Origin: Prolixibacteraceae bacterium
GTDB lineage: Bacteria > Bacteroidota > Bacteroidia > Bacteroidales > Prolixibacteraceae
Direction of reading: 5' to 3'
NCBI GenBank assembly: GCA_019856515.1
Contig: CP082230.1
Location: 1,674,001-1,738,000, forward strand
Length of the DNA: 64,000 bases
Shown here: piece by piece, positions 16,619 to 40,675 of the stretch
Numbering within the stretch: position 1 is the stretch's first letter
Layout: the number at the start of each line of letters is the position of its first letter
Made by a program: the position numbers and the translations under genes
Notes under the pieces: generated by a model
Told to the model about the DNA's origin: nothing
Database searches by the model: none
The model's input: only the letters and a program-made list of their open reading frames with translations

Positions 16619-16782
16619 TCGTGTTTATTTAATTTGTTCTAATCAACATAACAATCGCAGGTAAATTAACGACTTTTCAAGTTAATAAGTAAGAAATGTT
16701 GAATAAAAATTACAACTATTGGTCATTAAAAATAGGTGATTGGTGAAAAATAATTCCTATCATTGCATGCTTTTAGATGGAA

Positions 16783-16960
16783 CATAAACGGACTTATTAG
16801 TCTGTTTATAAGGGAATCTTGTGAAAATCAAGGACTGTACCCGCAGCTGTAATGGATAAAAGTAAACCTTGTTGTTAGAACCACTGATACTTAAATTGTA
16901 TTGGGAAGGAACAACCAAAGGATCCAAAGTCAGAAAACCTACTTCTTTAAGTCATTTAAA
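16783..16960 (+). ncRNA. Cobalamin riboswitch
   Basis: The core is plain: AGGGAATCTTGTGAAAATC at about 16811-16829, GGACTGTACCCGCAGCTGTAA at about 16832-16852, a CCACTG segment near 16881 followed by TTGGGAAGG near 16912, and the B12 box GTCAGAAAACCTAC at 16929-16942. A hairpin at 16783-16808 (arms ATAAACGGAC and GTCTGTTTAT) corresponds to the 5' helix. In the known class, adenosyl- or methylcobalamin binding lowers expression of the downstream gene. It lies 130 bp before a TonB receptor gene and a PepSY gene on the same strand. The end points are approximate. Confidence 0.92.
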
Positions 16961-22321: not shown

Positions 22322-23389
22322 TTAATTTACTGAGATATAGTTGGCAATCCAATCTCCAACTTCCGATGTTTTACAACTTTTCTCTTTGTCGATATCTTCG
22401 GTTACCACTCCTGCATCCATGGAAGCCAAGACCGCTTTACGGATCAATGCACCTTCATCTTTCATGTCAAAAGCAGTTTCAAACATCATGGCAGCAGAGA
22501 GGATTGTTGCAATAGGATTTGCAATATCTTTACCTGCTGCTTGCGGATATGAACCGTGAATTGGTTCAAAAACACTCGTGTGTGTTCCAACTGATGCAGA
22601 AGGAAGAAGCCCAAGAGAGCCGGTGATCACACTTGCCTCATCGGTTAGAATATCCCCGAACATGTTCTCTGTGACCATCACATCAAATTTCTTTGGCCAT
22701 TGGATAATTTGCATTGCAGCATTATCCACAAACATATAATCTGTCTCCACCTCAGGATACTCTTTCTCGATTTTCTGTGCCACCTCTCTCCATAGGCGTG
22801 ATGTTTCTAAAACGTTGGCTTTATCAACAACAGTCACTCGTTTATCTCTTTGTAATGCAAACTTATAAGCAAGATGCAAAATACGTTCTACTTCTTCTTT
22901 GGTATATACACAATGGTCATAAGCACCATTACCATCTTCTGTACGCCCTTTATCACCAAAATAGATACCACCAGTAAGCTCTCGCAAACATAGGAAATCG
23001 GCTCCTTCAACAAGCTCTTTTCGTAGTGGTGATTTATGTAGCAAAGAGGGAAAAGTAGTCACAGGGCGAAGGTTTGCATATAAACCTAGCTGCTTACGCA
23101 TTCTTAATAATCCTTGTTCTGGACGTACCTTCGCGGTTGGGTCATTATCAAAACGAGGATCACCTATAGCACCAAACAAAACTGCATCTGCATTCATACA
23201 AATTTCATGTGTTGCTTCAGGATAAGGATCTCCCACTTGATCAATAGCAGTAGCTCCTACTATACCCTCTTTTGTCGAAACATCATGTCCAAATTTATTT
23301 GCAACTGCATTTACTACTTTCAATGCTTGGTCTACGATCTCTGGACCGATGCCGTCTCCTGCTAATACTGCTATATTTAATTTCATCAC
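22322..23389 (-). CDS. leuB: 3-isopropylmalate dehydrogenase
   Basis: A 355-residue enzyme that oxidises and decarboxylates 3-isopropylmalate to 2-ketoisocaproate with NAD in leucine synthesis; the same enzyme can act on erythro-3-methylmalate in the citramalate route to isoleucine. Family marks are [15 protein letters not shown] at the N-terminus, the [16 protein letters not shown] loop with substrate-binding arginines, [29 protein letters not shown] for NAD binding and the [32 protein letters not shown] metal site. Length is standard. The start may be the first or second ATG (MMKLN). It is the last gene of the ilv-leu operon, 10 bp after the cimA-like gene, and is followed by a terminator. 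Confidence 0.96.
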
Positions 23390-23399
23390 CTCTTACTTA

Positions 23400-24935
23400 T
23401 TAATAGTTTTCTACTTCTAACTCAATAATGTTTAACATTTTAATGGTCGCCTTAATTGCGGCCTCTGTCTGATCGCTCTCTAGACCTCTGGTTTTAAAAA
23501 TCTTACCATAGTTCCATGTGATCACAGTTTCCACCAAGGCATCTGTTCTTCCTCCAGGAGGAATTGTCACAGAATAATCGATTAAAGCAGGGAAAGGTTT
23601 ATTCAGTTTGGTGTAGATCATTCTTAACGAATTCATAAATGCATCATACTGTCCATCCCCCGCCGATGTGGCTTGATGTACTTGACCATCAATTTCGATA
23701 CTCAAAGTGGCTGTCGGGTACAAACCTTGCGTATGTACCAAAGAGTAGTTTGAGAGTTTGATTTTCTCCTCCAACTGTTGTGTTCTCAAGACATCCGAAA
23801 TAATATAAGGAAGATCTTCTATGGTCACATTCTCTTTCTTGTCAGCCAAGTCAATAATACGATCAGTAACAATCTTCAACTCCGCAGGTTCCATCTCAAT
23901 ACCGAGTGCTTCTAAATTTTTTACGATATTGGCTTTGCCTGATGTTTTTCCTAAAGCATACTTACGAACACGACCAAAACGTTCTGGTAAAAGATCATTA
24001 TAGTATAGTCCATGTTTGTTGTCACCATCTGCATGCACTCCACTACATTGGGTAAACACATTCTCACCTACCACAGGGCAGTTCTGAGAAATACGGATTC
24101 CTGAATAGGACTCTACCATTTTAGATAGCAAGGCTACTTTACGTTCTTCTACTTTCGTCGAAAAATCAGTATGATCATGAATCAATGCCACCACACTTGC
24201 CAATGGCGCATTTCCAGCTCGCTCGCCAAGACCATTGACGGTTGTGTGCACTCCTTTTGCTCCAGCCTGCATTGCCGACAACACATTGGCCACGGATAGA
24301 TCATAATCATTGTGGGCATGAAAGTCGAAATATATATCTGGAAAACGATCCACCATATCTTGAATAAAAGTATGGGTCTCATGTGGGGTCAATATACCTA
24401 AAGTATCAGGAAGCATTACCCTCCCTAACTTATCTACATTCACTCCTTCAAGAAGTTGATAAACATGAGACGCATCCTGCTTCATTCCATTAGACCAATC
24501 CTCCAAATATAGGTTTACATTAATGCCCTTAGACAATGCTTCGTTGATCGAACTATTTATCTCTTCAATATGTTCTGCAAGGCTCTTTCTTAGTTGATGT
24601 TTCAAGTGGTTGGCAGAACCTTTTGAAAGTAAGTTTAACACTTCTCCACCGGCCTCTTCAATCCAACGTATTGATTTTCCTTGATCCACAAACCCCAATA
24701 TCTCTATTTTAGACGCAAAGCCTTTGGATCGTGCCCAATCCATTATCTTCTTTGCAGCTATCATTTCTCCATCAGACACTCTTGCCGATGCTATTTCAAT
24801 AGCATCAACCGAGAGCTCTTGGAGTAAAAACTTAGCTATCGAGAGTTTTTCATGAGCAGCAAAGGAGACCCCTGAAGTTTGCTCACCATCTCGTAGCGTA
24901 GTATCCATGATCGATATGGTACGGTTTTTCATCAT
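23400..24935 (-). CDS. Second 2-isopropylmalate synthase family protein, probably citramalate synthase
   Basis: A 511-residue protein with the DRE-TIM metallolyase opening [28 protein letters not shown] for metal binding and NGLGERAGNAPL. The C-terminal third is a LeuA-type regulatory (dimer) domain (GDGQYDAFMNSLRMIY). It is a distinct paralogue of the leuA at 27113-28615: it has TSGVSF where LeuA has VPGCQL after DGEQ, and SGVHADG where LeuA has SGIHQDG. Position between leuD and leuB fits a citramalate synthase (CimA: pyruvate plus acetyl-CoA, for isoleucine), but substrate choice is inferred. I chose ATG 24935; an in-frame GTG at 24956 and ATG 24932 are alternatives. Confidence 0.8.
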   Translation of the reverse strand: MMKNRTISIMDTTLRDGEQTSGVSFAAHEKLSIAKFLLQELSVDAIEIASARVSDGEMIAAKKIMDWARSKGFASKIEILGFVDQGKSIRWIEEAGGEVLNLLSKGSANHLKHQLRKSLAEHIEEINSSINEALSKGINVNLYLEDWSNGMKQDASHVYQLLEGVNVDKLGRVMLPDTLGILTPHETHTFIQDMVDRFPDIYFDFHAHNDYDLSVANVLSAMQAGAKGVHTTVNGLGERAGNAPLASVVALIHDHTDFSTKVEERKVALLSKMVESYSGIRISQNCPVVGENVFTQCSGVHADGDNKHGLYYNDLLPERFGRVRKYALGKTSGKANIVKNLEALGIEMEPAELKIVTDRIIDLADKKENVTIEDLPYIISDVLRTQQLEEKIKLSNYSLVHTQGLYPTATLSIEIDGQVHQATSAGDGQYDAFMNSLRMIYTKLNKPFPALIDYSVTIPPGGRTDALVETVITWNYGKIFKTRGLESDQTEAAIKATIKMLNIIELEVENY

Positions 24936-25044
24936 ATTGAGGGAAGAATATATCACATCTTTAATCAGATGTAACTAGATATTATCAACTGTATCTCCAC
25001 TAGTGTTCATTAAAGTCACGCAGTGGAGATAATTCGGTCATTAT

Positions 25045-25632
25045 TTATTTCTTTTCAAAAGATTCGATATCTGATTTCATATGAATCAAATAATCGATAT
25101 CATCGTATCCTTTTAAGAGACACTCTTTCTTGTATGGATTGATTTCAAACGACTCTGAAAGCCCTAACGCTTCGTTAGTAATCGTTTGTGCTTCAAGATC
25201 CACCGTCAGTTTTGTTGTCGCATCTTTTTCGATTGCATCGAATGTTTTCTCTAAAAACGATTCAGACACCACCACAGGAAGTAAGCCATTGTTTAATGCG
25301 TTTCCTTTAAAAATATCGGCAAAGAAACTAGATACAACCACTTTAAATCCGTGATCATAGATAGCCCAAGCAGCATGTTCTCTACTAGAACCACTACCGA
25401 AGTTTTTACCTGCAACTAAAATCGATCCACTATAACGATCATCGTTTAATACGAAATCATCATTTTGAGATCCATCTTTTTGATATCTCCAGTCACGGAA
25501 GAGGTTATCTCCAAAACCTTTTCGCTCCGTCGCTTTTAGAAATCGTGCTGGGATGATTTGATCAGTATCCACATTCTCTATTGGCAATGGGATCGCTGTA
25601 CTCTGTAATGTTTCAAACTTATCTATTGGCAT
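25045..25632 (-). CDS. leuD: 3-isopropylmalate dehydratase small subunit
   Basis: A 195-residue small subunit that, with LeuC, isomerises 2- to 3-isopropylmalate. The N-terminus ([23 protein letters not shown]) and the swivelling-domain motif [17 protein letters not shown] are diagnostic, as is [20 protein letters not shown]. Length is typical of bacterial LeuD. It starts 31 bp after leuC ends, as expected for subunits made together. With the cimA-like gene next door, the pair probably also isomerises citramalate. Confidence 0.96.
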
Positions 25633-25663: not shown

Positions 25664-27061
25664 TTATAACTCTCTCGGATCAGTAATCACTCCTGTAATC
25701 GCTGCTGCTGCTGCCACTAATGGGCTTGCCAACAACGTTCTTGCACCAGGTCCTTGACGACCTTCAAAATTACGGTTAGAGGTCGATACTGAATATTTAC
25801 CTGCAGGAATCTTATCGTCATTCATTGCTAGACATGCAGAACATCCAGGCTCTCTCATTTTAAATCCGGCTGCTTCTAAAACCTCAACAAGACCTTCTTC
25901 TTGAGCCTGTTTCTCTACTACTTTTGATCCAGGAACAATCCATGCAGTTACACTATCGGCTTTCTTTTTGCCATCAACAAATGCAGCAAAAGCTCTTAGA
26001 TCCTCGATACGACCATTGGTACAACTTCCAACAAACACATAGTCAATAGGATGTCCCAACATCTGTTGTCCTGCGGAGAATCCCATATATTCCAATGATT
26101 TCTCAAAAGATATTTTATCCGTTCCTTCTAGGTCAGTACCTGAAGGGATATTCCCTTGCACAGATACTCCCATTCCTGGATTCGTACCATAAGTGATCAT
26201 TGGAGTGATATCTGCAGCATCATAATGAAATTCTGCATCATAAACAGCTCCACTATCCGTCTTAAGCTCTTTCCATTCAGCCAAAGCCTTATCCCAAGCT
26301 TCACCTTTTGGTGCAAAAGGACGTCCTTCCACATAGTCAAAAGTAGTTTGATCTGGTGCAATCATACCTCCACGAGCACCACATTCGATACTCATATTAC
26401 AAAGAGTCATACGACCTTCCATAGAAAGGCTTTCCACTGCTGAGCCTGCATATTCAATAAAATAACCAGTACCCCCAGAAGTCGTCAATTTAGCAATAGC
26501 ATACAGCGCAATATCTTTTGCAGTTACTCCATCAGACAGTTCTCCATCAACTTTGATTAACATCGTCTTTGGTTTTGGCTGCATAATACACTGAGAGGTA
26601 AACACCATCTCCACTTCACTTGTTCCAATACCAAAAGCGATACTACCAAAAGCTCCGTGAGTAGAGGTATGGCTATCACCACAAACGATAGTCATACCAG
26701 GTTGTGTATATCCCATTTCAGGACCTACAACGTGAACAATACCGTGATTTTGACTACCTAAACCATAATATTGAATACCATGATTAGAACAGTTTTTCTC
26801 TAATGTCTCAACCTGAAAACGAGACTCCTCATCTTTAATCGGTTTGTCTTGCTCAATTGTAGGGACATTATGATCTGGAGTAGCTGTTGTTTGTGCTGGG
26901 CGTGCTACTTTTAACCCTCTGTTCTCAATACCAGTGAAAGCTACTGGGCTGGTCACCTCATGAATAAAATGTCTATCGATATAGACTACATTCGGGCCAC
27001 CCTCTACTTGTTTCACGACATGGGCATCCCATATTTTATCAAATAATGTTTTTGGCTGCAT
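25664..27061 (-). CDS. leuC: 3-isopropylmalate dehydratase large subunit
   Basis: A 465-residue aconitase-family enzyme. It shows [13 protein letters not shown] at the N-terminus, [33 protein letters not shown] with the first cluster Cys, and [14 protein letters not shown] with the CxxC pair that completes the 4Fe-4S ligands. Full length for the bacterial form. It lies between leuA (51 bp) and leuD (31 bp) in the operon. Catalyses the isomerisation step of leucine synthesis in the cytoplasm. Confidence 0.97.
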
Positions 27062-27112: not shown

Positions 27113-28615
27113 TTATACTACGACAATCTTATTGATAGCATCAATAAAGGCCTCTACTGATGCTATGACAATATCTGTATTGGCTCCGAAACCATGATAG
27201 AAATGATCACCATAGTTGATGGTCATATGTACCTTACCGATATCATCACTTCCTCGTGTGATCGCTTGAATCAAGAACTCCTCCAAAATGACTTTCTTGT
27301 GAATAATTTGTTTCACGGCAGAAAGTGCTGCATCAACGGGTCCATTTCCAACGCTACATGCAGTAAATAGTTCTCCTGCAATGTTCAACTTCACGGTAGC
27401 CATTGGCTCCATATTCTTCCCTGTAACCACCTGGATATCGTGAAGTCTGATACGCTGCCCTTCCGTCTTTTCGACCTCACCAACCAATACCATGAGGTCA
27501 TCCTCTTTGATGTCCTTCTTTTTATCAGCAAGCTTCAAGAACTCTTGGTATACTTCATCTAGCTTTTCGCCTTCTAGGTTCACACCCAACACTTCTAAAC
27601 GGTGTTTTAAAGCTGCTCTACCACTACGCGCAGTTAGAACAATTGACGACTCTTTGATTCCGACATCTTCTGGATCGATAATCTCGTAGGTCTCACGATT
27701 CTTTAAGACACCATCCTGATGAATACCTGAAGAGTGGGAAAATGCATTTCGTCCAACAATCGCTTTATTGGCTTGAACAGGCATATTCATCAAGGTAGAG
27801 ACCAAGCGAGAAGTTTTAAAAATATTCTGTGTCTTAATGTTTGTCTCAAGATTCAGGTCTTGATGACTCTTCAATGTCATCACCACCTCTTCTAATGAAG
27901 TGTTACCGGCACGTTCGCCAATACCATTCAAAGTAACCTCCACTTGTCTTGCTCCATTCATCACCCCAGAGATACTGTTGGCAGTAGCCATTCCTAAATC
28001 ATTATGACAATGAGTTGAAAGAATTGCTTTATGAACATTAGAGACATTCTCCATTAAGAATTTAATCTTCTCACCAAACTGATTAGGCAAACAGTAACCA
28101 GTTGTATCAGGTATATTAACCACCGTAGCTCCTGCTGCGATTACCGCCTGCACAACTTTAGCTAAATAGACATTATCAGAACGGCCTGCATCTTCGGCAT
28201 AGAACTCCACATCTTCCACATATCTCTTTGCGTATTTAACAGCAGCAACGGCTCTTTGAAGCACCTCATCTTCAGTAGAGTTTAGCTTATACTTAATATG
28301 ATATGGTGACGTTCCAATACCTGTATGAATACGCCCTCTTTTGGCATATTTTAGTGCATCGGCAGCCACATCGATATCTTTCTCTACTGCTCTAGTCAAA
28401 GCACATATGGTTGGCCAAGTTACCGCTTTAGAGATCTCTACCACAGAATTAAAATCACCTGGACTTGATACTGGAAAGCCTGCTTCAATCACATCGACGC
28501 CGAGCTCTTGGAGAGCTTTTGCTACCTCTATCTTCTCTACAGTGTTTAACTGACATCCTGGGACTTGCTCTCCATCTCTTAATGTTGTATCAAATATATA
28601 GACTCTATCTGCCAT
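27113..28615 (-). CDS. leuA: 2-isopropylmalate synthase
   Basis: A 500-residue enzyme condensing acetyl-CoA with 2-ketoisovalerate, the first committed step to leucine. Motifs: [16 protein letters not shown] (catalytic Arg and metal Asp), [15 protein letters not shown] (metal His), [14 protein letters not shown] and [14 protein letters not shown]. The C-terminal ~110 residues are the regulatory domain that binds leucine in family members ([15 protein letters not shown]). It follows ilvC by 117 bp, a gap that holds a strong hairpin, so the leu half may be separately processed or tuned. Feedback inhibition by leucine is expected from the family, not shown. Confidence 0.95.
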
Positions 28616-28732: not shown

Positions 28733-29785
28733 TTATCCTTCATTATTTTCTGGACGTAACTGACGAACAGTTTGACCTGCTTGCCACATCTCAGAATCTC
28801 TTAGTTCTTTTAATTCTGCCTCTAATTTCACACGATAGTCTGGTTGGCTATTTGAATCAATAGAACGTTGTGCTTCATTACCACAAGCTACCTCATCATA
28901 CAATTTCTGGAACACAGGCTTGGTTGCATCACGGAAAGGCTTCCACCAATCTAGTGCACCACGTTGTGCTGTTGTTGAAGTATTTGCATACATCCAGTCC
29001 ATACCATTTTGTGCAACCAATGGCATCAAACTTTGTGTCAACTCTTCAACCGTCTCATTGAAAGCCTCTGATGGTGTATGTCCTTGTTCTCTTAATACTT
29101 CGTATTGTGCAGCAAAAATACCTTGAATACATCCCATCAAAGTACCACGCTCTCCAGTCAAGTCAGAATAAACCTCACGTTTGAAATCTGTTTCAAACAG
29201 GTAACCTGAACCTACACCAATACCTAAAGCAATTACTCTATCATAAGCACGACCAGTGGCATCTTGGAAGATTGCATAACTTGAATTCAAGCCACGTCCT
29301 TCAAGAAACATTGTACGCAAACTTGTTCCTGATCCTTTAGGAGCAACCAAGATAACATCAACGTCTGCTGGCGGTACGATACCTGTTCTATCGTTAAAAG
29401 TGATACCAAAACCATGTGAGAAGTAAAGTGCTTTTCCTTTTGTAAGGTGCTTCTTCACCGTTGGCCAAACAGCGATCTGACCTGCATCAGACAACAAGTA
29501 TTGGATCACAGTTGCTTTCTCACAAGCTTCTTCAATATCAAATAGATTCTCTCCTGGCACCCAACCATCAGCCACAGCTTTGTCCCAAGTCTTTGAGTCT
29601 TTACGCTGACCAACAATTACGTTGAATCCATTGTCTCGAAGGTTAAGAGACTGTCCTGGACCTTGAACACCATAACCAATTACAGCAATGGTTTCATCTT
29701 TCATTGTTTCACGTGCTTTTTCCAATGGAAACTCTTCACGCATCACTACTTTCTCTTCTGTCCCTCCGAAATTTAACTTTGCCAT
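28733..29785 (-). CDS. ilvC: Ketol-acid reductoisomerase, class I
   Basis: A 350-residue enzyme that converts acetolactate or acetohydroxybutyrate to the dihydroxy acids with NADPH and Mg. The Rossmann motif is GYGVQGPGQSLNLRDNGFNV; the catalytic knotted domain includes SDLTGERGTLMGCIQGIFAAQYEVLRE, which supplies metal-binding acids. Length fits the short class I form. It sits between ilvN and leuA, as in other Bacteroidota ilv-leu operons. Coenzyme preference is assumed from the family; the loop reads GQRKDSK, compatible with NADPH. Confidence 0.96.
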   Translation of the reverse strand: MAKLNFGGTEEKVVMREEFPLEKARETMKDETIAVIGYGVQGPGQSLNLRDNGFNVIVGQRKDSKTWDKAVADGWVPGENLFDIEEACEKATVIQYLLSDAGQIAVWPTVKKHLTKGKALYFSHGFGITFNDRTGIVPPADVDVILVAPKGSGTSLRTMFLEGRGLNSSYAIFQDATGRAYDRVIALGIGVGSGYLFETDFKREVYSDLTGERGTLMGCIQGIFAAQYEVLREQGHTPSEAFNETVEELTQSLMPLVAQNGMDWMYANTSTTAQRGALDWWKPFRDATKPVFQKLYDEVACGNEAQRSIDSNSQPDYRVKLEAELKELRDSEMWQAGQTVRQLRPENNEG

Positions 29786-29831: not shown

Positions 29832-30386
29832 TTAATTGTTGTGATCTAGTACTGTCTGTACTCGATCTCTTTCTCTCAAAAACTCTGATAACTTCTCTAT
29901 ATTTGATCTAGTAATCGCGACACGTCCTGAACGAATAAACTGAAGTACACCATGAGGGTTTAACTTCTCAAACAGCTCTTGCGTTTCGGCTTTATGCCCT
30001 GTCTTTTCAATCACAGTAAAATTGGGAGTAATCTCCAATATACGAGCATTGTACTCTCTTACGAGTTTCTCTATATGATCTCCTGACAATAACGACTCTG
30101 AAGACACTTTATATAGTGCAACTTCTTGATGTACCACCTCATCATTACGATGATAAAAGCATTTTAAGACTTCAACATGTCTCTCAATTTGCACACACAA
30201 TTTGCGTATCCTCTCTTCCGTATCCTTTACTACAATAGTAAACTTACTTATCCCTGCGATAGCCGATTCAGAAACGGTCAAACTATCAATATTCATTCGT
30301 CTACGAGTAAACATGATGGTAATACGGTTCAACAATCCAATGGTGTTCTCTGTATAGGCTGATATGGTAAATTCTTGTTTTTGCAT
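29832..30386 (-). CDS. ilvN: Acetolactate synthase small (regulatory) subunit
   Basis: A 184-residue regulatory subunit. The first ~75 residues are an ACT domain (FTISAYTENTIGLLNRITIMFTRRRMNIDSLTV) that binds valine in known enzymes, and the second half is the ALS small-subunit C-terminal domain. It starts 12 bp after ilvB ends, so the two are translated as a pair. It activates IlvB and makes it sensitive to feedback inhibition. Length is slightly larger than E. coli IlvN/IlvH and typical for the phylum. Confidence 0.93.
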   Translation of the reverse strand: MQKQEFTISAYTENTIGLLNRITIMFTRRRMNIDSLTVSESAIAGISKFTIVVKDTEERIRKLCVQIERHVEVLKCFYHRNDEVVHQEVALYKVSSESLLSGDHIEKLVREYNARILEITPNFTVIEKTGHKAETQELFEKLNPHGVLQFIRSGRVAITRSNIEKLSEFLRERDRVQTVLDHNN

Positions 30387-30398
30387 AGTATGTCACGA

Positions 30399-32132
30399 TT
30401 ATGAATTAGGTCCCAATCTCACATCAGATATAGTCGCTCCAGAAGGAACCATTGGGAAAACATTATCTTCTTTCTCTACCCTCACTTCTAGGAAATATGG
30501 TCCCTCTTGTGCTAACATCTCATCAATTGCAGCAGCTAAATCATCTCTTTCTCTCACCAGTCTTGCTGGAATTCCATAACCTTCTGCAATCTTGATAAAA
30601 TCAGGGTTATGCATCTCTGTAAATGAATATCTACGATCAAAGAAAAGCTCTTGCCACTGTCTTACCATCCCTAAGAATTCGTTATTCAAAACGACCACTT
30701 TTACATTTAAGTTCTCTTGTTTGATGGTAGCCATCTCTTGAATGGTCATTTGGTATCCACCATCTCCCAAGAAAGCAATCACAGGTTTGGTCGGATTCCC
30801 CACTGCTGCACCTACTGCTGCTGGCAGACCAAAACCCATCGTCCCAAGACCACCAGAGGTAATACAACTACGACTATTTTTAAATTTAAAATAACGAGCT
30901 GCAATCATCTGCTGTTGTCCTACATCGGTAGCCATTATAGCATCATGATTTGTTGCTTCAGCAACTTGATGAACGACCTCTCCCATAGTTAAACCAGGTT
31001 TAGATGGGTATATATCCTTCTCAATAACCTTTTCATATTCCGCTTCTTGAAAGGGAACAAACTCATTACACCAAGCGGTGTGATCATTATCTTTCACCAA
31101 CTTAAGCAACATCTTTAATGCTTTCTTTGCATCACTACAGATAGCAACTTCTGCTGGTATATTTTTATTAATTTCAGAAGGGTCAATCTCAACATGAATC
31201 ACCTTAGCTTGTGTAGCATAAGTCTTTATATCACCAGTCACCCTATCATCAAAACGCATACCAACAGCTAACAACAAATCACATTCGTTGGTCATCACAT
31301 TGGGTCCATAGTTACCATGCATTCCTAGCATCCCTTTCCAAAGAGGGTGATCAGAAGGAACGGCTGAAAGCCCCAAAAGTGTTGATGCCATTGGTATTCC
31401 AGTTTTCTCAGCAAACTGGAGTAAAACCTTTTCTGCTCCCGACAATACGACTCCTTGTCCTACTAACATCAAAGGTTTTTTTGCTTGATTTATTAATCTT
31501 GCAGCATCTATTAATGACTTCTTCTCTACAGGTTGTTCTGGCAAATAACTGCGGATACGACGGTACTTCTTATATTTAAATGAAGTGGGAGCAAACTGAG
31601 CATCTTTCGAGATATCGATCAATACAGGCCCTGGTCTTCCACTTTTGGCAATAAAAAATGCTTTCGCAACCACATCTGTAATTTCATCAGCATCTGTAAT
31701 CTGATAATTCCATTTGGTTACAGGCATCGACATTCCCACAATATCAGACTCTTGAAAAGCATCTGTTCCCAATAATGGACTAGTTACCTGTCCAGTAAAA
31801 CAGACCAATGGGGTCGAATCAATCATAGCATCTGCAATACCAGTAATTAGGTTCGTTGCTCCAGGACCTGAAGTCGCGAAACACACACCTACTTTACCCG
31901 AGACTCTTGCATAGCCCTGTGCAGCATGAATGGCACCTTGCTCATGACGAGTCAATACGTGATTAACTTTATCAAGGAAATCATATAAAGCATCATAGAC
32001 TGGCATAATCGCACCTCCTGGATATCCAAAGATGGTATCTACACCTTCCTCTAGTAACGATTTAATTAATGCTTGCGCTCCTGTTACATTCTCTTCATCT
32101 CTCTCAAGTGAACTGTTATTTTGGGTCGTCAT
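30399..32132 (-). CDS. ilvB: Acetolactate synthase large (catalytic) subunit
   Basis: A 577-residue ThDP enzyme making acetolactate from pyruvate, or acetohydroxybutyrate with 2-ketobutyrate. Motifs: GYPGGAIMPVYDALYD, RHEQGAIHAAQGYARVSGKVG with the activating Glu, the FAD-binding centre (GMLGMHGNYGPNVM, GMRFDDRVTGD) and the ThDP motif GDGGYQMTIQEMATIKQENLNVKVVVLNN. About 25 residues precede the conserved ALIKSLLEEGVDTIFGYPG. It is second in the operon, 31 bp after ilvD, and directly before ilvN. Confidence 0.96.
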   Translation of the reverse strand: MTTQNNSSLERDEENVTGAQALIKSLLEEGVDTIFGYPGGAIMPVYDALYDFLDKVNHVLTRHEQGAIHAAQGYARVSGKVGVCFATSGPGATNLITGIADAMIDSTPLVCFTGQVTSPLLGTDAFQESDIVGMSMPVTKWNYQITDADEITDVVAKAFFIAKSGRPGPVLIDISKDAQFAPTSFKYKKYRRIRSYLPEQPVEKKSLIDAARLINQAKKPLMLVGQGVVLSGAEKVLLQFAEKTGIPMASTLLGLSAVPSDHPLWKGMLGMHGNYGPNVMTNECDLLLAVGMRFDDRVTGDIKTYATQAKVIHVEIDPSEINKNIPAEVAICSDAKKALKMLLKLVKDNDHTAWCNEFVPFQEAEYEKVIEKDIYPSKPGLTMGEVVHQVAEATNHDAIMATDVGQQQMIAARYFKFKNSRSCITSGGLGTMGFGLPAAVGAAVGNPTKPVIAFLGDGGYQMTIQEMATIKQENLNVKVVVLNNEFLGMVRQWQELFFDRRYSFTEMHNPDFIKIAEGYGIPARLVRERDDLAAAIDEMLAQEGPYFLEVRVEKEDNVFPMVPSGATISDVRLGPNS

Positions 32133-32163: not shown

Positions 32164-33993
32164 TTATATTAGTCTCACCGCTCCTTTATCAGCTGATGAT
32201 ACTAGTTTTGAATAAGCTTTTAAAGCTTTAGATACTTCTCTCTTTCGTGTTTCAGGCGTAAATGCCTTCTCTCCTCTTGCCTCTTGTTTCTTTCTTCGCT
32301 CTTGTAGTTCTGGTTCCGGGACATCTAAACTGATAGTTCTATTAGGAATATCAATCTTCACAGGATCACCATCTTCGACCAAAGCAATCACACCTCCAGC
32401 TGCGGCTTCAGGTGATGCATGTCCAATAGATAAGCCAGAAGTTCCTCCAGAGAAACGACCATCGGTTAATAATGCACATACTTTATCCAACTGCATCGAC
32501 TTAAGGTATGATGTTGGATAGAGCATCTCTTGCATTCCAGGACCTCCTTTAGGGCCTTCATAACGAATAATTACAACATCTCCTGCCTGTACCGCATCTC
32601 CTAGAATACCATTACATGCAGCCTCTTGTGATTCAAATACTCTTGCTGTACCCTTAAATTCAAATACAGAAGGGTCTACTCCTGCCGTCTTAACAATGCA
32701 GCCCTTTTCTGCAAGGTTACCAAACAGAACAGCCAATCCACCATCCTGATAATATGCATGTTCTACTGAACGTATACATCCATTCTCACGATCCAAATCC
32801 AACAGTTCATATGATTTATCTTGTGATCCCATCACTAGATTACGACCAAGATTACCTGGAGCGGAACGATATAGATCTGCCGCCTCTTCAGTCACGGTTG
32901 CACAGCACACATCATGTGTCTTTAGAATCTCCTCTAACGTTGAACCATCCGCTCTGTAGACATTCGTCTCCAACAAAGATGCCCTACTAAGTTCTGCAAG
33001 AATACCAAGTACTCCTCCAGCTCTGTTTACATCTTGAATATGATAGCTAGAGTTAGGAGAGACCTTACAAAGACAAGGAACTTTACGTGACAGTCTATCC
33101 ATGTCATGCATATCAAACTGCACTTCAGCTTCATGAGCAATCGCCAATAGATGTAAAACAGTATTTGTAGATCCACCCATTGCAATGTCTAGTGTCATCG
33201 CATTCATAAAAGCATCTCTAGTCGCAATGGCTCGTGGAAGAACGTTTTCATTCCCATCTCTATAATATTCATAAGCCAACTCTACAATTCGATGCGCACC
33301 ATCTTCAAACAATTTCTTACGGTTAGCATGCGTAGCTACCACTGTCCCATTACCAGGAAGAGAAAGCCCCAACGCTTCAGTCAAACAGTTCATCGAATTG
33401 GCAGTAAACATTCCAGAACATGATCCACATGTAGGACATGCACTCTGCTCTAGCTGCTTTAGCTTTTCATCATCATAACTGTCATCTGCGCCTTTAACCA
33501 TTGCATCCACCAAGTCATAATGCTCGCCATCCATCTCTCCTGCTTCCATCGGACCTCCTGAGACAAATAGTGTGGGGATATTTAATCTCATCGAAGCCAT
33601 TAGCATTCCTGGAGTGATTTTATCACAGTTCGAAATACATATCATTGCATCCACCTTATGGGCATTACACATATACTCCACACTATCTGCAATTACCTCT
33701 CTCGAAGGCAAAGAGTATAACATGCCATCATGTCCCATTGCAATACCATCATCCACTGCAATCGTATTGAACTCTGCGGCAAAACAACCTTTGGATTCCA
33801 CAATACGTTTCACCTCTTGGCCTACTTCATGTAGATGAACATGACCAGGAACCATCTGAGTAAACGAGTTTACAATGGCAATAATCGGTTTTCCAAAATG
33901 GCTCTCCTTCATCCCATTGGCTCTCCAAAGGCTACGAGCTCCAGCCATTCTTCGGCCTTCAGTGGTGATACTACTTCTAAGTTTCTTATGCAT
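32164..33993 (-). CDS. ilvD: Dihydroxy-acid dehydratase
   Basis: A 609-residue iron-sulfur dehydratase, the third common step to valine and isoleucine (dihydroxy acid to keto acid). Motifs: [46 protein letters not shown] with one cluster Cys, [18 protein letters not shown] with further Cys residues, and [22 protein letters not shown] near the C-terminus. Length is standard. It is the first gene of the operon, and its ATG lies 17 bp after the U-run of a leader terminator, so its expression depends on reading through that attenuator. Confidence 0.96.
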
Positions 33994-34011
33994 GGTTAAC
34001 AGTTTTTCTTG

Positions 34012-34057
34012 TGCAAAAAAAAAGAGCCTTCCTCATGTTTGTGAGAAAGGCTCTTTT
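34012..34057 (-). terminator. Attenuator terminator in the ilv leader
   Basis: On the minus strand AAAGAGCCTT (complement of 34047-34056) pairs with AAGGCTCTTT (complement of 34021-34030), extended by an inner CTCA/TGAG helix, and is followed by nine consecutive Ts (complement of 34015-34023). It lies between the leader peptide and ilvD. The 5' arm overlaps a segment that can instead pair with the end of the leader-peptide ORF (34087-34097), so terminator and antiterminator exclude each other. Confidence 0.9.
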
Positions 34058-34092
34058 CTGAACTCGATATGTATAGATATACAAAACCTCTC

Positions 34093-34155
34093 TCACATGG
34101 TATTCATGAGAATAATAATGACGATGAGAATAATATTTGTAATCTTCGATAACAT
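34093..34155 (-). CDS. ilv operon leader peptide (attenuator peptide)
   Basis: A 20-codon ORF with ATG at 34155 and TGA at 34093 encodes MLSKITNIILIVIIILMNTM. Nine consecutive codons (residues 8-16, IILIVIIIL) specify Ile, Leu or Val, the products of the operon. The ORF lies between a good promoter and an intrinsic terminator just ahead of ilvD. Segment 1 (TTCTCA inside the Ile/Leu codons) can pair with segment 2 around the stop codon. Segment 2 (TGTGAGAGAGG, complement of 34087-34097) can instead pair over 11 bp, with one G-U, with segment 3 (CCTTTCTCACA, complement of 34040-34050), which forms the 5' side of the terminator. Ribosome stalling on the BCAA codons would therefore favour read-through. 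The reading is directly visible; the regulation is inferred from classical attenuation. Confidence 0.88.
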   Translation of the reverse strand: MLSKITNIILIVIIILMNTM

Positions 34156-34222
34156 ATCTGTCTTTCTTTTTTTTCTAGTAAGCTAATTAGTACTACGCTG
34201 TACTTATTGTTCAATCACATTC

Positions 34223-34252
34223 CAAATGTAGGGATATTTTTTTTACATCAAA
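34223..34252 (-). promoter_or_regulatory. Promoter of the ilv-leu operon
   Basis: On the minus strand TACATTTG (complement of 34223-34230) matches the Bacteroidota -7 consensus TAnnTTTG, and TTTG (complement of 34249-34252) lies 18 bp upstream as the -33 element. Predicted start is near 34216, giving a leader of about 220 nt that holds the leader peptide and attenuator. DNA from 34253 to 34812 is AT-rich and shows nothing else I can name. Confidence 0.7.
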
Positions 34253-34812
34253 ACGAATTCATAATTTTTTTTGATGACTTAATATTAAATTAAAACTAAA
34301 CACTCATATTAACTTACAGTTAAAAGTGTTCCTTTTTAATACTTTATTTTAGTAAAATAACCCTACTGATTTTCAATGTATTACAATACACTGTCTAAAG
34401 TAAAATATAGATAAAGACACACAGGTGTTTATCTATATACAAACGATTGATTTACAGTAACATACAAAATATCCAAAAGAAGCAGATTGAGAGACCTTTT
34501 TTTCACATTCACAAGAAAAATAAAATACGAGAACTACCAATCTAAAAAGAGATATGTAAGTAAAAGGCTTCAATTACTTATATTCTGCAACTTTACGCTC
34601 GACATTATAACATACAGGATGTCATTATATGGCAAACAAAAACCATAATGATAAATGAAACACTTCTTATAAAATAATGTAGTAATATGGATTACATAGT
34701 CAATCCAATTATCTTTATAAAAAGTGATCTGTAATGGATGAATTAACTTTAATCATGATATAAGCACGAATAATTAAAACTAAAGTATCAACACCTATAA
34801 AACTAACACATA

Positions 34813-37290
34813 ATGAAAACAAAACACAGATGGAGCATGCTATGCGTATTAATAATCATGTTAATATGTAAAAGCAATGGCTATACGAAGGAGTATATTC
34901 TTAATAAAAACATCAATATTTATGTTGATAAAAACAGCGATAAACTAATTAAATGGGCAGTAAAAGATATTGCAAAAGATATTGAGTACATTCTAGAACA
35001 GAAGGTCCTTATCCATTATGACAACACCCACTTTTCTGATATCAATGGTATATATATTGGACAGATTAATGATACACTTATTCAAAATACTTTTACTAAA
35101 AAGAAAAAGCTCTCCAACAACCATTGGGAAAAATATAGCATACAACTCCAGCAGAAAAATCTCTTTATAGTCGGGAGTGACATACGAGGTACTGTATATG
35201 GACTATTTGAGTTTGCTCAGAGAATTGGCATCTCCCCATGGAAATGGTGGGCAGATATCGATCTACAAAAGAAAAAAGAGATTCATCTTCAAATACCTCA
35301 TCATGGTATCATAAGCTCTCCATCCGTCCAATTTAGGGGAATATTCTTAAATGATGAAGATTGGGGACTACAACCGTGGGCTGCCAAAACATTTGAACCT
35401 CAAAACAGAGACATTGGCCCCATGACTTATGAAAGAATATTTCAACTGCTACTACGATTAAAGGCCAATACTATTTGGCCAGCCATGCACCATTGTACGG
35501 AAGGTTTTTACAAGATTCCTGGGAATATGTCAATGGCAAAGAAGTACCATATCTACGTCGGGACATCACATGCAGAACCAATGCTACGCAATAACGTTAG
35601 TGAATGGAGTACTAAATCATTTGGCCCTTATAACTATTTCACCAATAGTGATAAGATAAAATCTTATTGGCAAGAACGCATATCCGAAACAAAGAATAAC
35701 AAGAATATAATAACACTTGGAATGCGTGGTATTCATGATTCTGGAATGCAAGGAGATGCAACAAAAGAGCAGAAAATTAAATTAACTGAAGATATTATCT
35801 CTGACCAACGTCAAATATTATCTCAAAATATTGAGACCCCACTATCATCTATACCTCAAGTCTTGACTCTCTACAAAGAGGTGTTGTATATCTATAATAA
35901 TGGACTCAAGGTTCCTGATGATATTACTCTAATGTGGACTGATGACAATTATGGCTATATAAGGCGATTATCCAATGATACGGAGAAAGCTCGAAGTGGA
36001 GGTAGTGGAATATACTATCATCTTAGCTATTGGGGGAGACCTCACGACTATCTGTGGCTCTCCACAACACAACCGGCATTGATATGGTATGAGATGTCAC
36101 GAGCATATCAAAATGGTGCTCGAAAAATATGGATTGCCAATGTCGGAGACATCAAACCGAACGAATATAATATGGAACTTTTTCTTGATATGACTTGGGA
36201 TGTCAACGAAATCAACCCTAATAATATAAACCTTCATCTTTCAAATTGGTGTCATCGAGAGTTCAATAGCAATAAGACCGATGAAATCGCAAATATTTTA
36301 GATGAATATTATAGACTCGCATTGATTAGGCGACCAGAATTTATGGGATGGAGTCAAACAGAACCTCAAACAAAGACCCAAAAGACCGAATTCAACTCAA
36401 ATGGTGCTAAGCGTAGAATAGAGTCATACTTAGATTTAATCGATCGGGTAAACAGAGTAAAAAAAGACATTCCTAAACAACGAATAGACGCTTTTTTTCA
36501 GTTGGTTGAATACCCAGTAAAGGCAGCTGCATTTATGAATCTAAAATTCTTATATGCACAACAGTCATACCTATCCGTAATCAAATCCCAAAAATCTTCT
36601 TTTTCTAGACTATCAACCAATGCATATGATAGTATTTCACACATCACGAATGTCTATAATAAAAGAATGAGAGATGGAAAATGGAATAATATGATGTCAA
36701 TGAACCCCAGAAACCTGCCCGTTTTTCAACAACCGACATACCACAAAACTCAAGATAACTCTCTCCACAATGAGAAGATCAAATCACAGAGTTTATCTGC
36801 CCCTATCTCTATATCGGCTAAAAATTTTGTAAAAGCAAAAGGGGCCAAAGGTTATCAATGGCATCAAATTAATGGTCTAGGATATAGTAATAATGCAGTG
36901 ACACTATTACCCCTCGAAGACATACTTTTCACAAAAAAGATCCCCTATATCCAATACAACTTTGAGATCAAGAAACCTGGTGTTTATAATTACGAACTTC
37001 GTTTCTTACCCACTCACTCAAATAAGTTTAACCATAACGTAACCATTCATATTGATAATAATCTGATGCAACAGTCTGCCCTAAACACCAAAGGTAGAAG
37101 TAATAAATGGAAACAGAATGTGTTACGTAATTTCGCGTCAGTAAAAGGAAGTATAAAAATAAATAATACAGGAGAACACGCTATAACTGTCATGGTCAAT
37201 AAACCGGGAATCGTTTTAGATCAAATATTTATTTCGCCTAAAGGATATGGTAATTACTATGAGATCCCCCCTAGTCACAGCAGTAATTAA
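34813..37290 (+). CDS. GH115 family xylan alpha-1,2-glucuronidase
   Basis: An 825-residue secreted enzyme. Residues 1-24 form a signal peptide. The N-terminal GH115 domain shows VGSDIRGTVYGLFEFAQRIGISPWKWWADI; the barrel follows with FRGIFLNDEDWGLQPWA, RLKANTIWPAMHHCTEGFY, VGTSHAEPMLRNN, TLGMRGIHDSGMQG and MWTDDNYGYIRRL. The C-terminal ~160 residues form the usual beta-sandwich (GYQWHQINGLGYS, IVLDQIFISPKGYG). Family members remove glucuronic or 4-O-methylglucuronic acid from xylan. Asp/Glu residues in the NDEDWG and DDNYG motifs are the known catalytic/binding candidates. It is not in a SusCD locus, which is unusual for this phylum's xylan enzymes; the substrate is inferred from the family. 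Confidence 0.9.
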   Translation: MKTKHRWSMLCVLIIMLICKSNGYTKEYILNKNINIYVDKNSDKLIKWAVKDIAKDIEYILEQKVLIHYDNTHFSDINGIYIGQINDTLIQNTFTKKKKLSNNHWEKYSIQLQQKNLFIVGSDIRGTVYGLFEFAQRIGISPWKWWADIDLQKKKEIHLQIPHHGIISSPSVQFRGIFLNDEDWGLQPWAAKTFEPQNRDIGPMTYERIFQLLLRLKANTIWPAMHHCTEGFYKIPGNMSMAKKYHIYVGTSHAEPMLRNNVSEWSTKSFGPYNYFTNSDKIKSYWQERISETKNNKNIITLGMRGIHDSGMQGDATKEQKIKLTEDIISDQRQILSQNIETPLSSIPQVLTLYKEVLYIYNNGLKVPDDITLMWTDDNYGYIRRLSNDTEKARSGGSGIYYHLSYWGRPHDYLWLSTTQPALIWYEMSRAYQNGARKIWIANVGDIKPNEYNMELFLDMTWDVNEINPNNINLHLSNWCHREFNSNKTDEIANILDEYYRLALIRRPEFMGWSQTEPQTKTQKTEFNSNGAKRRIESYLDLIDRVNRVKKDIPKQRIDAFFQLVEYPVKAAAFMNLKFLYAQQSYLSVIKSQKSSFSRLSTNAYDSISHITNVYNKRMRDGKWNNMMSMNPRNLPVFQQPTYHKTQDNSLHNEKIKSQSLSAPISISAKNFVKAKGAKGYQWHQINGLGYSNNAVTLLPLEDILFTKKIPYIQYNFEIKKPGVYNYELRFLPTHSNKFNHNVTIHIDNNLMQQSALNTKGRSNKWKQNVLRNFASVKGSIKINNTGEHAITVMVNKPGIVLDQIFISPKGYGNYYEIPPSHSSN

Positions 37291-39670: not shown

Positions 39671-40675
39671 ATCGGGTAGATGGCTGGAAGATATTTTATC
39701 TTCCAGTACACCTCCCACACCACCGTACGTACGGGTCTCGTATACGGCGACTCCCTAAATCACGACTTTACTCTCTGATAATAATCACTTAGCGTAATAT
39801 AGCCTGCCTTCTCCAAATTCTTATTCGTTATAGTCGTTTGTTGAATTGGACTCTTTGAAATGCGCCAATACTTTTTCCTCGTATTAGCATATTCATACGC
39901 TTTGCTCTTCAAAACTCCGATCAAATATGCCGCATCAAATAATGATAATTCGCCATCGGGCTAATACTTACCTTCTCGTAGTTCTGTTATTAAAACTTTT
40001 CGATGAAATCTGAGATAATCTTTTAATGATTCCACTTTCATCTTATCAACTCCATGACTCCTTTATTACGATAAACCTGTAAATAAGCCTTATTTAGGTT
40101 ATCTGATTATAGGACATGTTCTAATAAATTATCTGTTGTAATGTTCGTTTCCATAATGGCTTCAGTTATCCCTTTGAAAGTGTGCGCTCTTGAGTTATTC
40201 TCGAGTTCCGCTCTACCTTCACTTAAGTAGCTATCTTCCGATATTTTCTGCATTGATCCCTTCATTAGGTAACAGTCTGTATTATGAATGATTTAAGATT
40301 CAGTCCTTCCTGTAAAGTGGGTACAGTACTATGACCTCGGCTGACTTCTCACAGTTAACTTTTTTTGAATGGACAGGAAAAATACACTGTATCCATCTGC
40401 GAGATCTCCCATGGTAAGGAAATTAACTTTCACTCCATCTATCCGCCACATCTACGGTATTAACTCTGTGTAGAATTCGGACTTTACTTTGTTTAGCAAG
40501 CTTATCCAGTTATATACCGCCTAATGAGATTCGTATACCTCGGATCAGAGTTTTGCATACGGCTTCCTTCAGGTTATACCTCACGATAAGCACCCTTGCC
40601 TTCTGCTAGGTGGTTGGCTCTACAAACCTCCACTACGGACTTGCACCGATTAGTTAATTTACATGCATGGCACAC
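39671..40675 (-). mobile_element. Decayed group II intron (probably class C) inserted at a terminator
   Basis: Read on the minus strand, the element starts GTGTGCC (complement of 40669-40675), matching the GUGYG 5' end of group II introns, and continues with domain I text typical of Bacteroidota introns (GGTGCAAGTCCGTAGTGG, GCAAGGGTGCTTATCGTGAG). A domain V-like hairpin (GCCGTATACGAG... ACGTACGGTGG) lies near 39722-39750, a domain VI-like hairpin near 39672-39700, and the end reads CCCGAT (39671). Between them is a wrecked intron-encoded protein. At about 1.0 kb it is less than half normal length. The 5' end sits directly after the T-run of the terminator at 40676-40713, the site class known for group IIC introns. 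Confidence 0.8.
39760..40154 (-). pseudogene. Remnant of group II intron reverse transcriptase/maturase
   Basis: Minus-strand translation gives an N-terminal piece (METNITTDNLLEH... DNLNKAYLQVYRNKGV), a frame change, then VDKMKVESLKDYLRFHRKV with LREGKY, which corresponds to the RT0 region ('GVDGMTV... GxY'). This runs straight into DAAYLIGVLKSKAYEYANTR and KKYWRISKSPIQQTTITN, ending LEKAGYITLSDYYQRVKS, which is the maturase (domain X) C-terminus. Blocks RT1-RT7, including the YADD active site, are missing. In-frame TAA stops and one frameshift confirm decay. There is no endonuclease domain at the end, as in class C introns. Confidence 0.8.

Follow-up and report, generated by a model that had tools for sequence, protein, structure and literature searches.

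A predicted ribosome-mediated attenuator with an Ile/Leu/Val leader peptide upstream of the ilv-leu operon in a Prolixibacteraceae bacterium

Attenuation by amino-acid supply is among the founding examples of gene regulation, and detailed knowledge of it comes from Proteobacteria. The 64,000-nucleotide stretch analysed here (the window) raises the question of whether a Bacteroidota ilv-leu operon is controlled in the same way, by a ribosome that stalls on a short leader ORF ahead of ilvD. Direct reading of the minus strand from 34252 to 33991 showed that the region contains all elements of a putative attenuator, arranged as follows.

34223 to 34252, minus strand: predicted promoter of Bacteroidota type, with TTTG at 34252-34249, an 18-nt spacer and TACATTTG at 34230-34223 (from the sequence)
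34093 to 34155, minus strand: leader peptide ORF of 20 codons from ATG to TGA, MLSKITNIILIVIIILMNTM (from the sequence and the ORF translation)
34107 to 34112, minus strand: proposed, weakly supported segment 1, TTCTCA
34087 to 34097, minus strand: segment 2, TGTGAGAGAGG, spanning the stop codon and forming the 5' arm of the antiterminator (pairing, fold and covariation)
34040 to 34053, minus strand: segment 3, with CCTTTCTCACA at 34050-34040 as the 3' arm of the antiterminator and 34053-34043 as the 5' arm of the terminator (covariation with both partners)
34024 to 34034, minus strand: segment 4, the 3' arm of the terminator (fold and covariation)
34015 to 34023, minus strand: U-run of nine Ts (from the sequence)

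Most of this architecture had been claimed in the initial annotation, whose interpretation was supported in its main points. The promoter was present in the sequence as described, and reading of the minus strand confirmed the 20-codon ORF with nine Ile/Leu/Val codons in an unbroken run (IILIVIIIL). The 11-bp pairing between segment 2 (34097-34087) and segment 3 (34050-34040) was also confirmed, with one G-U pair, and the 2:3 stretch folds with −21.9 kcal/mol (z −4.88), a value that none of 200 shuffles equalled. The nine Us of the terminator were found as claimed, but its arms (34053-34043 and 34034-34024) form 11 bp with one G-U pair, not 10 bp. The 51-nt terminator folds with −25.1 kcal/mol (z −6.67; 0 of 200 shuffles as good), and in the predicted fold A-U pairing with the first bases of the U-run extends the stem to 17-18 bp. 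A simple promoter and terminator scan listed no terminator at the ilvD leader, perhaps because this A-U extension consumes part of the U-run. In equilibrium folding with segment 2 free, the terminator still wins (−30.4 kcal/mol), and the antiterminator folds as long as segment 4 has not yet been made. Antitermination therefore has to rely on kinetics, as attenuators usually do.

Nine genes of branched-chain amino-acid synthesis follow the leader.

32164 to 33993, minus strand: ilvD, dihydroxy-acid dehydratase, the first gene after the attenuator
30399 to 32132, minus strand: ilvB, acetolactate synthase large subunit
29832 to 30386, minus strand: ilvN, acetolactate synthase small subunit
28733 to 29785, minus strand: ilvC, ketol-acid reductoisomerase
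27113 to 28615, minus strand: leuA, 2-isopropylmalate synthase
25664 to 27061, minus strand: leuC, 3-isopropylmalate dehydratase large subunit
25045 to 25632, minus strand: leuD, 3-isopropylmalate dehydratase small subunit
23400 to 24956, minus strand: second LeuA-like gene (cimA/leuA-like), with the citramalate synthase model as best match, below its cut-off
22322 to 23389, minus strand: leuB, 3-isopropylmalate dehydrogenase

The leader had been proposed to control all nine at once. All nine were found on the same strand, from ilvD to leuB, with gaps of 10 to 117 nt, and we infer that they form one transcript. The second LeuA-like gene scored 643 bits against a cut-off of 950 for the citramalate synthase model, and it may open a pyruvate route to isoleucine. 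The nearest upstream gene (34813-37290, plus strand) is divergent from ilvD; therefore, the leader hairpin is not the terminator of another operon.

Taken as a classical ribosome-mediated transcription attenuator, which on the sequence evidence it very probably is, the leader would work as follows. RNA polymerase would start some 60 nt upstream of the leader ORF. As long as the tRNAs for Ile, Leu and Val are charged, the ribosome would cross all nine codons, reach the stop codon and cover segment 2, so that segment 3 would pair with segment 4 and transcription would stop after about 200 nt. With any of the three tRNAs in short supply, the ribosome would stall in the codon run with its front edge just before segment 2, which would be free to pair with segment 3 before segment 4 is made; the terminator would then be blocked and the nine-gene operon transcribed. 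In this scheme, translation of the leader, stalling, the termination decision and any role of segment 1 are what we infer.

Conservation was evaluated in a set of 61 genomes drawn from the genus, family and order of the present one (itself included), 50 of which have ilvD. At least 150 nt of upstream sequence was available at 49 of the 50 ilvD loci, and the remaining contig ends at the gene (L028). A script that required a terminator preceded by a small ORF in which four or more Ile/Leu/Val codons follow one another detected the arrangement at 44 of the 49 loci. Hand inspection raised the count to 48 of 49 by adding four leaders (L032, L038, L042 and L043, the last about 240 nt before ilvD), and a leader before ilvD was found neither by script nor by eye at L045. 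This comparison of ilvD upstream regions, which had been proposed as a check, thus showed that the codon run is conserved.

Because the leaders for the unit analyses below were hand-picked, a separate detector (leader, terminator and 2:3 pairing) was run on the best 80 of 593 loci, five of which had less than 300 nt of upstream sequence. It gave 22 hits among these 80, all placed in Bacteroidota by their record names and including Saccharicrinis, Labilibaculum, Phocaeicola faecalis and Odoribacter laneus, and none in 750 shuffled upstream regions or 75 reverse strands of related loci. Inspection of 24 of the 58 misses revealed a leader by eye in five (L080, L093, L098, L100 and L107), Bacteroides graminisolvens among them, and none by eye in the other 19, which include Prevotella and Prevotellaceae records. 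One miss (L097) has undetermined bases right at the leader position, and inspection by eye found no such leader at a locus of 70% identity outside the order (L051). These counts bear on the simplest alternative, that a random hydrophobic ORF in AT-rich DNA happens to precede an ordinary terminator. Short ORFs are common in such DNA, and the hairpin was not listed by the simple terminator scan; nevertheless, the upstream gene points away and leaves no transcript to end, and chance is contradicted by the 44 of 49 related loci and by the absence of hits of the stricter detector in the shuffled regions, which makes it a negligible explanation.

The promoter element TTG-N17-21-TAnnTTTG was found in the 140 nt upstream of the leader ORF in 38 of 57 units, compared with 2 of 239 stretches of equal length on the reverse strand. 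Conservation at the ilvD leaders covers the ORF, all three arms and the U-run, and a further conserved domain is absent. Composition aside, the sequences of the leader peptides vary widely.

The two rival helices were evaluated by exchanging segment 3 between loci and by covariation, using 57 units taken from 48 loci, nine of which gave two units each. In the swap test (55 units; L032 and L046 were excluded, as no terminator arm of 8 bases was found), replacing segment 3 with that of other loci lowered the 2:3 pairing score from 23.5 to 16.8 (z 11.2) and the 3:4 pairing score from 26.9 to 18.0 (z 12.5). The motif is conserved to such a degree that a unit's own segment 3 ranked first, alone or in a tie, for its segment 2 in only 16 of 55 units and for its segment 4 in 20. 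In a simple motif test, of the 16 units with CCAT in segment 3, 11 have the matching T in both partners and five only in segment 4.

The covariation alignment comprised 53 units (L002, L032, L042 and L048b excluded). Standard pairs occupy 86.2% of the cells of helix 2:3, compared with 78.8% after shuffling, and 93.6% of those of helix 3:4, compared with 86.8%. Two-sided changes were found at eight of 12 pairs of 2:3 (reached by 3 of 500 shuffles) and at seven of 12 pairs of 3:4 (0 of 500), and no shuffle among 500 gave as high a covariation score for either helix, although these controls ignore relatedness, so the counts are not probabilities. The outermost 2:3 pairs are often open, being unpaired in 23 and 25 sequences. 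The clearest covarying column, in segment 3, divides the units into a group with T and a group with A, and the A state occurs in no fewer than four of the order's families; with segment 2 this column gives A-U in 26 units and U-A in 17, and with segment 4 it gives U-A in 27 and A-U in 16. As both partners change along with segment 3, the terminator alone explains only one of the two changes. Helices 2:3 and 3:4, which exclude each other by sharing segment 3, therefore both covary, which answers the second comparative check that had been proposed for these two of the three helices.

The proposed 1:2 pairing is the weakest part of the attenuator case. The complementarity of TTCTCA to segment 2 is there, and a second, earlier TTCTCA in the leader codon run is also able to pair with segment 2, but the local hairpin is no better than shuffled sequence (z −0.28; 73 of 200 shuffles as good). 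Across 56 units, the mean z of the pairing was −0.91 (s.e. 0.17) when compared with synonymously recoded leaders and −0.64 (s.e. 0.15) when compared with leaders whose codon order was shuffled; the corresponding values for the unit of the window are −1.66 and −0.62. The protector hairpin is thus barely better than chance.

The position of the codon run relative to the RNA was also evaluated. Of the 57 units, 53 show a clear 2:3 match, and in these the distance from the first base of the last Ile/Leu/Val codon to segment 2 has a median of 13 nt and an sd of 2.0, with 47 of 53 units within 10-16 nt; the sd over all 57 units is 2.3, and the unit of the window has a spacing of 13 nt. In comparison, the sd is 5.7 when measured from the stop codon, 6.7 from the start codon and 9.4 for a random place in the searched interval. 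With the last Ile/Leu/Val codon in the A site, the footprint of a ribosome places its front edge roughly at segment 2. Given this footprint, the 13-nt spacing indicates that a stall in the run would free segment 2 and that a ribosome at the stop codon would cover it.

A metabolite riboswitch, a T-box or a protein-bound RNA might also set the choice between 2:3 and 3:4, with the ORF being incidental or encoding a small functional protein, and two mutually exclusive conserved helices before a biosynthetic operon would suit any attenuating RNA. Such an RNA does not account for a spacing that is held relative to the codon run, and the conservation of the ORF, three arms and U-run without a further domain also argues against it, as does the lack of a T-box or riboswitch match at the leader in Rfam. 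Specifically, no T-box was found at the leader, and none is listed for 33980-34300 at E values up to 10; at the gathering score, no ilv or leu family was found in the 64-kb window or in five loci with related leaders. The best Rfam resemblance of the leader is to Thr_leader (RF00506), with 33.8 bits under a gathering score of 55. Control by a bound ligand or protein is therefore highly improbable.

At the gathering score, the window holds three Rfam matches, none at the leader and none a T-box. They are a cobalamin riboswitch at 16760-16960 (plus strand, 75.8 bits) and two group II intron matches (RF01998 and RF02001) at 40303-40590 (minus strand).

Codon choice within the leaders differs from that in the ilvD genes. 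GTC makes up 53% of Val codons in leaders and 12% in ilvD genes; among Leu codons, CTC (30% vs. 9%) and CTA (18% vs. 5%) are enriched, and TTG (4% vs. 23%) and CTG (7% vs. 26%) are depleted. This preference may reflect tRNA charging or segment 1 pairing.

Nine of the 48 loci carry two complete leader-terminator units in tandem before ilvD (L004, L009, L010, L011, L021, L022, L023, L024 and L048). In eight of the nine, the second unit lacks a promoter-like element of its own, so that both units would lie on one transcript; L004 has one element per unit. As the element was found for only 38 of the 57 units, and 11 of those without it are not second units, its absence is weak evidence. Additional terminators upstream at L005 and L006 point to a first unit that has decayed, but no leader with an Ile/Leu/Val run was found there for it.

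If the ribosome stalls on uncharged tRNA, the leader amino acids should follow the product of the operon. A covariance model built from the 53 ilvD units (R1) matched 45 of the 61 relatives, many of which are the training genomes and match by construction. Of its 77 matches, 26 are not at ilvD (L186, L189, L194 and 23 further stretches), and 23 of these 26 precede leuA, as judged by the protein N-terminus and confirmed by NCBIfam in both cases tested (L186 and L212). The leuA leaders are of Leu/Ile type, with Val making up 3% of 266 Ile/Leu/Val residues, compared with 36% of 456 in 39 single ilvD leaders. The leuA-linked units (L186, L189, L194, L212-L227, L229-L231 and L234) belong to separate leuA genes, whereas leuA lies inside the ilvD operon in the window.

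At one further R1 match (L232), the first 300 bases hold a possible Cys-rich leader, MTRPSKHVHHICCCFIKCSRKVFFCC up to its stop codon, upstream of a gene for cysteine synthase; it is the only such case, and its R1 score is weak. Two other matches, one ahead of gltB (L233) and one ahead of a MocR-like gene (L228), are doubtful and show no convincing cognate leader. In a phylum sample, R1 matched 11 of 296 genomes under stricter filters by which weak matches are lost. These are the present genome, two genomes of its order that match at ilvD, and eight more, so that most of the phylum lies beyond the reach of the model.

In the eight further genomes, Ile-rich leaders were found before ilvE (L204, L205, L207 and L211; NCBIfam was run on L205 and L207) and before a gene resembling ilvN by eye (L209), and an Ile/Leu/Val leader precedes a distant ilvD (L202). 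Thr/Ile leaders such as MTTNNTIIITIITTGINLGGR precede aspartokinase-homoserine dehydrogenase (thrA) at L208 and L210 (NCBIfam was run on L208). These two loci represent another family of the same class.

In the genome under study, a His leader (MNFLNHHYGHHHFLPKGRP up to its stop codon) and a terminator were found upstream of hisG (L160) apart from R1, which would give this genome at least two attenuators of this type. A His-rich leader ORF is present at 22 of the 31 hisG loci examined (its own included), a count made without a shuffle control; hisG is present in 50 of the 61 genomes. Furthermore, all eight loci fetched for the Bacteroid-trp RNA (RF01692; L162-L169) hold a leader ORF with three consecutive Trp codons (WWW), and RF01692 matches were found in 11 of the 61 relatives, nine of them above the cut-off. 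This RNA has no match in the present genome, whose own thrA stands behind recA and a terminator and lacks a leader, indicating that not every pathway uses the device.

The agreement between leader amino acids and operon product is as predicted by stalling on uncharged tRNA, and not by an arrest peptide or a riboswitch. In nascent-peptide arrest, as known for TnaC and ErmCL, the hydrophobic leader peptide would itself stall the ribosome, perhaps by binding a small molecule. The leader peptides are indeed short and very hydrophobic, and the RNA switch would work alike wherever in the run the ribosome stalled. However, their composition tracks the operon product (His, Thr/Ile, Leu/Ile without Val, or Ile/Leu/Val), the ilvD leaders otherwise vary widely in sequence, and an arrest peptide does not need the synonymous preference for GTC and CTC. 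Nascent-peptide arrest is thus unlikely to account for the leaders, and tRNA-dependent stalling is the preferred reading.

A broader proposal is that these leaders form one modular Bacteroidota attenuator family, in which the RNA switch (GAGAAWGG ... CCWTTCTC ... GAGAAWGG plus U-run) is kept and the codon cassette exchanged, and in which, in some lineages, tandem units behind one promoter act as a two-stage filter that needs two separate stalls. The cassettes would be Ile/Leu/Val, Leu/Ile, Ile and Thr/Ile, perhaps also Cys, before ilvD, leuA, ilvE, thrA and cysK. We put this forward tentatively, as a possibility that is rather less likely than not.

The classical attenuators of Gammaproteobacteria control ilvGMEDA, leuABCD, his and thr. 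Like the present leader, they have a short ORF with a cognate codon run, a rival antiterminator and terminator, and a U-run before the first structural gene. The leader described here differs in its Bacteroidota promoter and weak 1:2 pairing, with no sequence relation shown, and in that one unit stands before ilvD and the leu genes together, tandem units being present in some relatives. An older comparative compilation by Vitreschak et al. from 2004 is said to mention a few Bacteroidetes/Chlorobi candidates, so that an earlier notice of Bacteroidales leaders is possible, and another older comparative paper is reportedly that of Lopatovskaya from 2010.

In the open literature searched, with subscription journals and supplements mostly outside it, no description of Bacteroidales ilv/leu leaders was found, including in the available text of PMC8305728, PMC4833913 and PMC6429828. 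Attenuation in Bacteroidota is not itself new, as the available text of a Flavobacterium psychrophilum transcript map describes strong clues for leader-peptide attenuation before amino-acid operons (PMC9723704). Similarly, that of a Bacteroides thetaiotaomicron map describes sORFs that recall leader peptides and lie within long 5' UTRs (PMC7366714). Unlike the present analysis, the main text of these two maps, as far as available, names no ilv/leu leader, covariation or codon spacing (PMC9723704, PMC7366714). The Bacteroid-trp RNA (PMC2864571) is likewise from Bacteroidetes and, in the eight loci examined here, has a leader ORF with a cognate codon run, but it is another RNA family, with Trp instead of Ile/Leu/Val. 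Beyond Proteobacteria, the available parts of two reports describe classical attenuators with a cognate-codon leader peptide and rival hairpins in Actinobacteria (PMC1262725) and Firmicutes (PMC2965389), in different phyla and with different genes and sequences from those studied here. According to the accessible text of the latter, a 2010 survey, leader-peptide systems were then known only in Proteobacteria and Actinobacteria, to which it added the Firmicutes one (PMC2965389). The locus is therefore a known principle in an unusually complete comparative case, and the exchanged codon cassettes and serial units are extensions that deserve study.

A set of attenuators that is conserved throughout Bacteroidales, including gut Bacteroides and Phocaeicola, and that has no Rfam match at the gathering score in the scanned leaders, would help to explain the control of amino-acid synthesis in an abundant phylum. 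The leader would also be a natural reporter for transcription-translation coupling in Bacteroidota; if a single family with exchangeable cassettes does exist, ribosomes would track RNA polymerase closely in these bacteria. The serial units may offer a route to studying two-step attenuation. Moreover, the relatives would carry many more switches of this type than the one ahead of ilvD here.
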